Program-made: the position numbers and the translations under genes | In this document: positions 53,927-62,677 of the stretch, piece by piece | Numbering within the stretch: the stretch's first letter is position 1 | How the letters are laid out: each line of letters begins with the position of its first letter | Notes under the pieces: generated by a model | The model's database searches: none | What the model saw: only the letters and a program-made list of their open reading frames with translations | Told to the model about the DNA's origin: nothing | Origin: Nitrososphaeraceae archaeon | Lineage (GTDB): Archaea; Thermoproteota; Nitrososphaeria; Nitrososphaerales; Nitrososphaeraceae | Direction of reading: 5' to 3' | NCBI GenBank assembly: GCA_031316115.1 | Contig: JALDRC010000005.1 | Coordinates: 62,001-126,000, forward strand | Length of the DNA stretch: 64,000 nt

Positions 53927-54769
53927 ATGGAATATGCTAATCCTAATGTACTAGTTGATACAAAATGGGTAGAAGAACACATCAATGATAACAATGTACG
54001 AATAGCAGAAGTAGATTATGATCCAAAAACAAATTATTTTCTTGGTCACATACCAAATTCAGTATTATTTGATTGGAAAAATGATATAAATGACCCAACT
54101 ACAAGAAATATACTTTCTAAGGAATCGTGTCTAAACTTATTACAAAAGTCTGGAATAAATCAAGATACTACTGTTGTTCTATATGGAGATTTTAATAATT
54201 GGTTTGCAGCCTTTGCTTTTTGGGTATTTGAATACTATGGTATAAAAAATTTGAAAATAATGAATGGAGGTAGGAAAAAATGGCTTGAAGAAGATAGGTC
54301 AATTTCAAAAGAAGTTCCTACTTTTCCCACGGGAAATATTACTCCTTCTGAACCGAACATAAATTTAAGGGCTTTTCTAGACCAAGTCAAAGAATCACTA
54401 GAATCTGAAAAAACGGTTCGAGTAGATGTAAGAAGTCCTCAGGAATTTAGTGGTCAAATTACAGCCCCACCAGAATATCCTACAGAACATGCACAAAGAG
54501 GTGGCCACATCCCAGGATCTGCAAACATACCATGGGGAAAAGCAGTTAATGAGGATGGTACTTTCAAATCTGCAGATGAGCTTTATGATTTATATAAAGC
54601 ACAGGGCATAACACCAGAAAAAGAAGTAATAACATATTGTAGAATAGGAGAACGTTCATCCCATACATGGTTCGTTTTAAAACATTTGTTAGGATATAAA
54701 GATGTAAAGAATTATGATGGTTCATGGACAGAGTGGGGAAATATGATAGCAAATCCAATTGAAAAATAA
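53927..54769 (+). CDS. Thiosulfate/3-mercaptopyruvate sulfurtransferase (rhodanese)
   Basis: Two rhodanese domains; active site YCRIGERSSHTWFVL. Confidence 0.95.
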   Translation: MEYANPNVLVDTKWVEEHINDNNVRIAEVDYDPKTNYFLGHIPNSVLFDWKNDINDPTTRNILSKESCLNLLQKSGINQDTTVVLYGDFNNWFAAFAFWVFEYYGIKNLKIMNGGRKKWLEEDRSISKEVPTFPTGNITPSEPNINLRAFLDQVKESLESEKTVRVDVRSPQEFSGQITAPPEYPTEHAQRGGHIPGSANIPWGKAVNEDGTFKSADELYDLYKAQGITPEKEVITYCRIGERSSHTWFVLKHLLGYKDVKNYDGSWTEWGNMIANPIEK

Positions 54770-54784
54770 TAATTAATTTATTTA

Positions 54785-55462
54785 TTATTTTTTAGTTTCG
54801 TTTTCTTTTCTTATCAAAAAGTGAAAAAAATGGTTTTCTTTTCTCACATCTACTATAGTCTGAAAGTTTTCTTTTGACCACCTCTCAATTTCCAAATCTG
54901 CTGTTACATCATCAGATACTAAATAGATTATCTCTCCTGTCTTAATTCGAGGTATTAGATCATCCAATTTTAAAAGAGTTGCTGCGCATTCTGATCCGAT
55001 TTCATATAACTCATGATCAGGAAAAAACTTGAAACATCGTATATTTAGGTTTTTTATGGTTTCTTCAAATATCTTGTTACAATCTTGTATATTTTTCAAA
55101 TATTTGATATCCTCATCTAAATTTGATGGATTGATAGTTACAAACCACCCTTCTTCATAAGGACTATCATTTACTAACTTAGGAAATTCTATGATTTTAT
55201 CATTCCTTTTTTCTATTTTACCGTAGATTGGGGACCTTAATGTTCCGAAATATCTTAAACTCTCAATTGAACTAAAACGTTTTCCCTTATCTATTGTTAT
55301 GTTTTCCTCTTTTATTTTAACAGATATTAATTTTCCTGAAATAGATGCCATAATTGGGGTTATGCCTAATTTTATAGAGTTTTTGTTTGAAACATCTATC
55401 CAAGTAAAATTTTCAATATCATAAAGCAAGGATTCAGGAAATGTACAATTGTTTATAATCAT
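54785..55462 (-). CDS. GcvH-like domain fused to a TusA-like domain
   Basis: SIKLGITPIMASISGKLISV...FSSIESLRYFGTLRSPIYGKI...PKLVNDSPYEEGWFVTI (GcvH-like) followed by ELYEIGSECAATLLKLDDLIPRIKTGEIIYLVSDDVTADLEIERW...FHFLIRK (TusA-like). Confidence 0.8.
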   Translation of the reverse strand: MIINNCTFPESLLYDIENFTWIDVSNKNSIKLGITPIMASISGKLISVKIKEENITIDKGKRFSSIESLRYFGTLRSPIYGKIEKRNDKIIEFPKLVNDSPYEEGWFVTINPSNLDEDIKYLKNIQDCNKIFEETIKNLNIRCFKFFPDHELYEIGSECAATLLKLDDLIPRIKTGEIIYLVSDDVTADLEIERWSKENFQTIVDVRKENHFFHFLIRKENETKK

Positions 55463-60970: not shown

Positions 60971-62677
60971 TTATGCTCCAGCCATTCCGGTTCTCAAGTC
61001 TACTGCTTTGTGATCTTCTAGTTCACTTTGAGCAGCAGCCTTGTGCATGTCGGATAAAGCACAACCCATTTGAGCCTCTGGTTTGCCGCGTCTCATCAAT
61101 CCTCTATATAATCCTGCTTCCAGTGTTTGACCATGTTGCTTTTCCCATTCTTCAACTGGAATACTGTACTTCTTTTGAATTCTATCTCTATACCATTCAG
61201 GAATAACATTAAATGCACAGAATGGTACTATTCTAAGGTCAGGTGTCAGGTAATGAATATCACATCTTTGCAATCTTTCTAAATCTTCGTTATACTTATC
61301 TTGGAAATGCATCATACCAAGGAAGAGAGACCTAACATGCCACGAGCCTACAGCATCGAAATTACGTTTCAAAAGTATACTCGAGAACATCTTTGCTAAA
61401 TTAAGACCATGTGGTTGTTTAGTTCTATCCACAAATTGGTTTAATTTACGAACAACTTCAAGCATTGTCCAATATCTATTTGCTCCGGAACGTAATTCAT
61501 CTGCTTTCTCTTCAAAATATTCCAGTAAACCTTTAATATCTACAAAAGAGGTCAAAGGTATTAGTTTTTTAGTCTGTACATCTTCAAAAACATATGTTCC
61601 TGCACCACAAGCAAAGTGAATGGATAATTCGTACTTTGGTTTTTTACTAAATGCTTCAATTACATCAGTCATAGGCATGCATGATGGAACTGGTAACCAA
61701 GCATCTTTAGAAATATCACCATTAGTTTGTTCTTCGATTCGTTCAATACAATCAGGAATTGTTATTCTATATTTTTCTCTCTCTTTCTTACCCATTCTTC
61801 CAGTAAGTGAAACAGGCTGAAAGTTTACTGCATGTACAACATCCATGTTCTTTTGTGCATATCCAATTATTCCACCTAATTCATGATCGTTTATGGATTT
61901 TATTACTGTTGGAACAAAAACAACAGTCATACCACATTTTCGAGCAGATTCAAGGGTATATGGAACTTCCCAATGATTCTTTGGATTAGTTCTGGGTGTA
62001 ACACCATCGAATGAAAGATAAAGATTACTTACACCTGCAGTTCTTACTTGCCGCATTGTTTCTGGTGACATTGCTAATTTGATACCGTTAGTATTTAATT
62101 GAATATGATCTACGCCTTCTTCTTTCATAATTTTTATTACATCTGTTATATCGTCTCGTAGCATTGGTTCGCCACCTGTAACTTGAATTGAATTTCCAGC
62201 TATTGGTCTTTCCGCTTTAAGAGTTTTCATCATAGCTCTTATTTGTTCATAATTTGGTTCATAGAGATAAGCTCCTTCTAGACCTTTCTTAACATAAAAG
62301 AAACAGTACCAACATGTCAAGTCGCATCTATTGGTAACGATCATATTTGATAAGCCTGAATGTGATAAGTGATTGGTACATAAACCACAATTTGTTGGAC
62401 ACGCACACTTATCTACCATTACATTAGGTGCATGAGCTCCTTTGCCATCTTTCCAATAAGTACTAAATTTCCTGTACATCTCGTATGAACCGAAATACAA
62501 TTCCTCGCATTCGCCATGAGATGGACAAGTTTTTGTCATGAATACTTTGCCATCTCTCTCGAAGACTTCAGCATCAAGAATCATATTACAATCAGGACAT
62601 ATACTTTGTGTAAATCTAATAGTTTTTTTTGTTGTAGAAACTTTATTTGTAATATTAGATATCTGTATTAATTCCAT
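60971..62677 (-). CDS. Radical SAM protein, Tes (tetraether lipid synthase)-like
   Basis: 568 aa; N-terminal CPDCNMILDAEVFERDGKVFMTKTCPSHG, NCGLCTNH, radical SAM CDLTCWYC, C-terminal PFCAFN. Confidence 0.78.
   Translation of the reverse strand: MELIQISNITNKVSTTKKTIRFTQSICPDCNMILDAEVFERDGKVFMTKTCPSHGECEELYFGSYEMYRKFSTYWKDGKGAHAPNVMVDKCACPTNCGLCTNHLSHSGLSNMIVTNRCDLTCWYCFFYVKKGLEGAYLYEPNYEQIRAMMKTLKAERPIAGNSIQVTGGEPMLRDDITDVIKIMKEEGVDHIQLNTNGIKLAMSPETMRQVRTAGVSNLYLSFDGVTPRTNPKNHWEVPYTLESARKCGMTVVFVPTVIKSINDHELGGIIGYAQKNMDVVHAVNFQPVSLTGRMGKKEREKYRITIPDCIERIEEQTNGDISKDAWLPVPSCMPMTDVIEAFSKKPKYELSIHFACGAGTYVFEDVQTKKLIPLTSFVDIKGLLEYFEEKADELRSGANRYWTMLEVVRKLNQFVDRTKQPHGLNLAKMFSSILLKRNFDAVGSWHVRSLFLGMMHFQDKYNEDLERLQRCDIHYLTPDLRIVPFCAFNVIPEWYRDRIQKKYSIPVEEWEKQHGQTLEAGLYRGLMRRGKPEAQMGCALSDMHKAAAQSELEDHKAVDLRTGMAGA

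Follow-up and report, generated by a model that had tools for sequence, protein, structure and literature searches.

LbpA and the H-protein are believed to work by means of lipoate. LbpA is a GcvH-like lipoate-binding protein of sHdr sulfur oxidation. With the exception of some archaeal LbpA proteins, it is set apart from GcvH by a strictly conserved cysteine close to each end of the chain (Cao et al. 2018, PMC6067878). Its lipoyl lysine is strictly conserved, it has a ligase of its own and no TusA domain, and its partner is the sHdr complex (PMC6067878). In sulfur oxidisers, rhodanese, TusA and LbpA-type modules occur together in Rhd-TusA-DsrE2 and LbpA trafficking clusters. Here, "LbpA-like" denotes two-cysteine GcvH-like proteins recognised by sequence and does not imply an sHdr role.

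The locus described below lies in a window of 64,000 nucleotides, the whole stretch of DNA analysed, from a Nitrososphaeraceae archaeon whose genome (G000) is 98.8% complete. It joins a GcvH/LbpA-like domain and a TusA-like domain in one polypeptide, next to a rhodanese gene. The sulfur-carrier modules themselves are known. What is new is the combination of a lipoate-independent LbpA/GcvH-type domain with a TusA-type domain in one protein, linked to a rhodanese of the CysA type. Elsewhere in the window, positions 60971-62677 (minus strand) encode the radical SAM tetraether lipid synthase Tes (NCBIfam NF045702, 694 bits, cut-off 450).

Architecture and distribution of the fusion

The gene at 54785..55462 (minus strand) was called as an open reading frame with an ATG start, and it encodes 225 amino acids. 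Residues 1-137 (55052..55462, minus strand) form the GcvH/LbpA-type domain, in which Pfam GCV_H spans residues 14-134 with an E-value of 6.2e-26 and 91.1 bits (cut-off 22.2). Residues 146-220 (54803..55027, minus strand) form the TusA-type domain, and Pfam TusA spans residues 156-219 with an E-value of 1.7e-6 and 28.2 bits, marginally under its cut-off of 28.6. The two families were matched at E<=0.01 by 14/14 and 16/16 aligned fusion members. A phmmer search of the PDB placed H-proteins at the top (pea H-protein, E 9e-15) and matched TusA-like proteins weakly. An AlphaFold model built from 16 relatives was confident (pLDDT 92.5, pTM 0.85). In Foldseek, the first part of this predicted model matched H-protein 3a7l (TMt 0.93), and the second part matched TusA (3lvj_C; TMt 0.87, rmsd 1.3). 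The initial annotation had proposed a GcvH-like N-terminal domain and a TusA-like C-terminal domain from the letters alone, and each half is borne out by its Pfam match and by its placement on the expected fold.

The fusion resembles GcvH (Pfam PF01597, TIGR00527) in fold and sequence (E 6e-26; TM 0.93), but it falls under the NCBIfam cut-offs for true GcvH (82.5 against 117 and 67.5 against 115.85 bits), lacks the SVK motif, and has no GcvP in its genome. Its C-terminal part resembles TusA (Pfam PF01206, E. coli TusA) in fold, length and cysteine position. However, it misses the NCBIfam cut-off for true TusA, reads CAAT in place of CPxP, is fused, and occurs in a genome with a separate CPEP-type TusA.

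The GCV_H-TusA fusion is conserved in an archaeal family, of which 115 sequences were compared. Neither chance resemblance nor a decayed gene explains it, since the fusion is encoded at 79 loci of other genomes and three of its cysteines are invariant. Many archaea of soils and hot springs carry it. Members come from Nitrososphaeraceae, among them records under the names Ca. Nitrosocosmicus and Ca. Nitrosopolaris, and from Ca. Nitrosocaldus. Others belong to records titled Bathyarchaeota, Euryarchaeota or Thermoplasmata, and members with 20-30% identity are found in families of the phylum that are more distant. The near-complete genomes of genus g12 and of family f9 yielded no fusion. Carriage on plasmids was considered and rejected: among the matches listed, those on plasmids were GcvH-type with less than 60% identity, and none was recognised as a fusion. 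Nothing on the fusion protein was found in the literature searched, which concerned TusA and rhodanese in Nitrososphaera and its relatives. In a tree of H-type domains, a branch (94/83) has the fusion domains on one side, and canonical GcvH is set off by a second branch (100/100). The LbpA-like proteins, sampled by Sulfolobaceae and one Acidithiobacillus protein only, fall on the GcvH side.

The lipoyl position and the lipoylation genes

The lipoyl lysine of the H-protein SVK motif pairs in the phmmer alignment to the pea H-protein with Arg70 of the ESLR motif (55253..55255, minus strand). The lysine-to-arginine replacement reported by the initial annotation is therefore real in the window copy, but loss of the lysine is not a signature of the family. 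In the alignment of 115 fusion sequences, the lipoyl column holds K 49, R 49, N 4, S 4, V 3, T 2 and I 2, so that lysine is kept in 49/113 members (43%). On a 69-row fusion tree computed without this column, the state switches between lysine and non-lysine at least 18 times. In related genomes, canonical GcvH has ESVK, ESIK or DSVK at this site, and SVK or SIK is kept in 17/17 of the copies in the tree set. The lipoyl lysine is thus unconserved in the fusion family, arginine is no signature either, and the two residues are exchangeable.

The gene content of the genome agrees with a domain that does not use lipoate. The fusion holds the sole GCV_H domain in G000, and neither GcvP nor a canonical GcvH was found there. 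No LplA-type lipoate ligase scored above the cut-off; the single weak match, below it, is a biotin ligase instead (BPL_C domain). A role as a canonical component of the glycine cleavage system is thus out for this genome. Eleven other fusion genomes that are at least 95% complete are likewise without a lipoate ligase, a GcvP and a canonical GcvH, making 12 such genomes with G000 included. Among 61 relatives, 33 genomes carry the fusion, of which 29 are without LplA above the cut-off, 27 without GcvP and 27 without canonical GcvH. An earlier survey found no lipoylation genes in any of the Thaumarchaeota that it covered (PMC3904984). A link between lysine at position 70 and the ligase was tried and was not significant: lysine is present in 16/28 members with LplA and in 13/34 without it (Fisher p 0.20). 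Since the lipoyl lysine varies freely and 12 near-complete genomes are without ligase, GcvP and canonical GcvH, the H-type domain of the fusion is independent of lipoate.

Within the genus, another genome (G002) contains a compact glycine-cleavage and lipoylation cluster (L193:1191-8948; G002:C245). The cluster encodes a dihydrolipoyl-dehydrogenase-like protein, LplA, Lip_prot_lig_C, parts of GcvP, GcvH, a GcvT-like protein and a lipoyl-synthase-like protein. This GcvH is an ordinary SVK-type protein that G002 has besides the fusion, and the two are therefore separate proteins. The GcvP, GcvH and LplA of the cluster are missing from G000, which makes them candidates for gain or loss within the genus.

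Invariant cysteines and the rhodanese neighbour

Three cysteines are invariant in the family. Cys6 (55445..55447, minus strand) lies near the N-terminus and is present in 107/107 members with letters at that position. Cys143 (55034..55036, minus strand), where the GcvH domain gives way to the linker, and Cys159 (54986..54988, minus strand), at the TusA position, are each present in 114/114. Cys6 and Cys143 align with the cysteine pair of the LbpA-like proteins from Sulfolobaceae and an Acidithiobacillus plasmid, and both are missing from 17/17 canonical GcvH proteins. The fusion thus has the extra N- and C-terminal cysteines that distinguish LbpA from GcvH. Judged by sequence, the closest known analogue of the N-terminal half would be LbpA and not GcvH, because Cys6 and Cys143 are the cysteines said to separate the two.

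Two loci encode such LbpA-like proteins among notable neighbours. In Sulfolobaceae (L198:9707-11768), a two-cysteine GcvH-like protein (NC.IPE with a CKRL end) is followed directly by an LplA-like gene, and immediately upstream lies another GcvH-like copy that has neither of these cysteines. On the Acidithiobacillus ferrooxidans plasmid (L201:7001-7447), the two-cysteine protein is found amid hemerythrin, DUF2249 and heterodisulfide-reductase-related genes.

Cys159 pairs in alignment with the CPEP cysteine of the TusA encoded elsewhere in G000. The motif around it reads CAAT in the window copy and C[AS].. in most members; CPxP is absent from the whole fusion-family alignment, where the residue after the cysteine is A, S, E or N. 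The initial annotation had noted both the kept cysteine and the change from CPxP to CAAT, and this alignment upholds both. The C-terminal part has the TusA fold and the active-site cysteine without the CPxP motif. The separate CPEP TusA of G000 lies 5 bases upstream of a same-strand PALP (cysteine-synthase-like) enzyme (L190:6672-7918; G000:C1:260672-261918). The fusion is not a strict GcvH, LbpA or CPxP-type TusA, because the E-S-[VI]-K lysine of the first, which is R70 here, the strictly conserved lipoyl lysine of the second and the motif of the third are all lacking.

The neighbouring gene (53927..54769, plus strand) encodes a two-domain CysA-type rhodanese, or thiosulfate sulfurtransferase (Pfam Rhodanese, E 1e-34). 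It is convergent with the fusion gene, from which it is separated by 15 bases. Its closest solved structure is 1uar, matched over the full length with an E-value of 3e-104, followed by 3aax and 3hwi. It therefore resembles the CysA2/CysA3-type sulfurtransferases represented by these structures, paired here with an archaeal fusion. A rhodanese gene adjoins the fusion gene in 56/92 loci, 42 of them convergent (within 400 bases) and 14 codirectional upstream. In the remaining loci, a rhodanese is nearby in 6, missing from the stretch in 22, and the stretch is cut off in 8. Apart from rhodanese, no neighbour is kept from one lineage to the next, and the other surrounding genes change. Two gene orders are found in different lineages, which argues for a functional tie over mere shared ancestry of the region. 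The convergent order in most loci provides no co-transcription of the two genes. In a distant branch of the fusion (families f45 and f30; L087-L102, L109), the rhodanese is mostly codirectional upstream, and in f45 the next genes downstream encode a SIS-domain protein or an ABC-transporter-like pair.

The rhodanese is also encoded elsewhere in the genome, at 60-67% identity, in 13/14 fusion genomes that mostly have no adjacent copy; the single genome of these 14 without a rhodanese is 57% complete. The fusion is passed on together with rhodanese. In a rhodanese tree, one set (99/92) unites 39 copies, 26 linked and 13 unlinked, from Nitrososphaeria and allies that carry the fusion, and the rhodaneses of fusion-less relatives fall outside it. 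Linked rhodaneses from two more distant families form separate branches, and rhodanese is also found without the fusion.

A proposed sulfur relay and its alternatives

The fusion itself, its three invariant cysteines, its freely varying lipoyl lysine, the missing lipoylation and glycine-cleavage genes of G000, and the rhodanese linkage were all observed here. By analogy, the fusion appears to work like LbpA and TusA. We consider it probable, with appreciable room for doubt, that it is a cysteine-based sulfur relay fed by rhodanese, a lipoate-free "LbpA-TusA". In such a relay, rhodanese would draw sulfane sulfur from a donor such as thiosulfate or a compound like it and would hand it to the fusion as a persulfide, most likely at the TusA-position Cys159. 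Cys6 and Cys143 on the H-protein scaffold may provide additional sites of relay, docking or disulfide release. A downstream acceptor would dock with the H-type domain or have sulfur presented by it, in place of a lipoate swinging arm. The persulfide chemistry, the direction of transfer and the acceptor are inferred. The initial annotation had suggested that an H-protein scaffold is reused in sulfur transfer without lipoate. This is the best-supported explanation, because the ligase is absent, rhodanese is a conserved neighbour, and the two extra cysteines mark LbpA; the sulfur transfer itself is putative. More tentatively, the protein's own cysteines could replace the lipoate arm of LbpA and the H-protein, with TusA and LbpA roles combined in one polypeptide and served by a dedicated rhodanese, in an undescribed route without lipoate or sHdr.

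The arrangement is like the trafficking clusters of sulfur oxidisers in bringing these modules together, and like LbpA in its GcvH-type fold, its terminal cysteines and a sulfur context with rhodanese and TusA. In contrast to LbpA, its lysine is free to vary and TusA is fused to it, and G000 has neither the ligase nor CCG/Hdr proteins. Unlike the clusters, the LbpA-type and TusA-type parts form one polypeptide without lipoate, and no DsrE or CCG protein accompanies them in G000. The genome has no CCG domain (PF02754) and therefore no sHdr complex, and DsrE was not found; sHdr and DsrE are thus out as partners in G000. Several observations count against the relay. CPxP is lacking, the TusA score of the window copy is marginal, and G000 keeps a separate CPEP TusA. 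The rhodanese is convergent in most loci, absent nearby in 22, and occurs without the fusion.

If the fusion were still a lipoylated carrier, a strict GcvH or LbpA, the arginine in the window copy would be a local oddity. The lysine kept in 49/113 members is in keeping with this, as is the lipoate ligase present in most fusion genomes outside the ammonia oxidisers (28/36, a set drawn mostly from other groups), where lysine-bearing members may be lipoylated. However, the lysine comes and goes at least 18 times and is untied to the ligase, lysine-bearing ammonia oxidisers (for example G003, G009, G018 and G034) have no ligase above the cut-off, and the motif is mostly ESx(K/R)(Y/F/H)(F/V) rather than ES(V/I)KA. 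We regard this explanation as highly improbable. Three invariant cysteines, the lack of a catalytic domain, the rhodanese linkage and a TusA part without CPxP would also suit a sensor or regulator of sulfane sulfur or redox state, in which a regulated disulfide or persulfide controls a partner such as rhodanese and sulfur is not carried to a product. The protein has no DNA-binding or signalling domain, and sulfur carriage is known or proposed for TusA- and LbpA-type proteins, which makes such a role unlikely, though less so than lipoylation.

The fusion might instead be a thiol acceptor that turns rhodanese over, in thiosulfate or cyanide detoxification or in the formation of sulfite from thiosulfate, with sulfur leaving as sulfide, persulfide or sulfite. 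This is the relay explanation with a named end product. It fits a partner that is a CysA-type thiosulfate sulfurtransferase, and it fits the oxidation of thiosulfate-derived sulfite proposed for Lutacidiplasmatales, for which TST and sulfite oxidase are listed (PMC9287336). A link between the fusion and sulfite oxidation of that kind is possible. G000 encodes a PF00174 molybdoenzyme, but some complete fusion genomes, G006 and G037 for example, have no member of this family, and sulfite oxidase is therefore out as an obligate companion. We give this specific outcome a low probability, slightly below that of a sensor or regulator.

The cysteine-based relay remains the preferred reading. An annotation as "glycine cleavage H" in such genomes is not to be taken as glycine cleavage or lipoylation. 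The fusion family bears on the role of the two extra LbpA cysteines. Since the family keeps these cysteines and drops the lipoyl lysine, it offers a direct test of cysteine-only sulfur passing by the scaffold. If the relay is true, the H-protein scaffold can function in sulfur transfer without its cofactor, and soil ammonia-oxidising archaea and soil Thermoplasmata would gain a specific sulfur carrier coupled to rhodanese, of which no description turned up in the literature searched.
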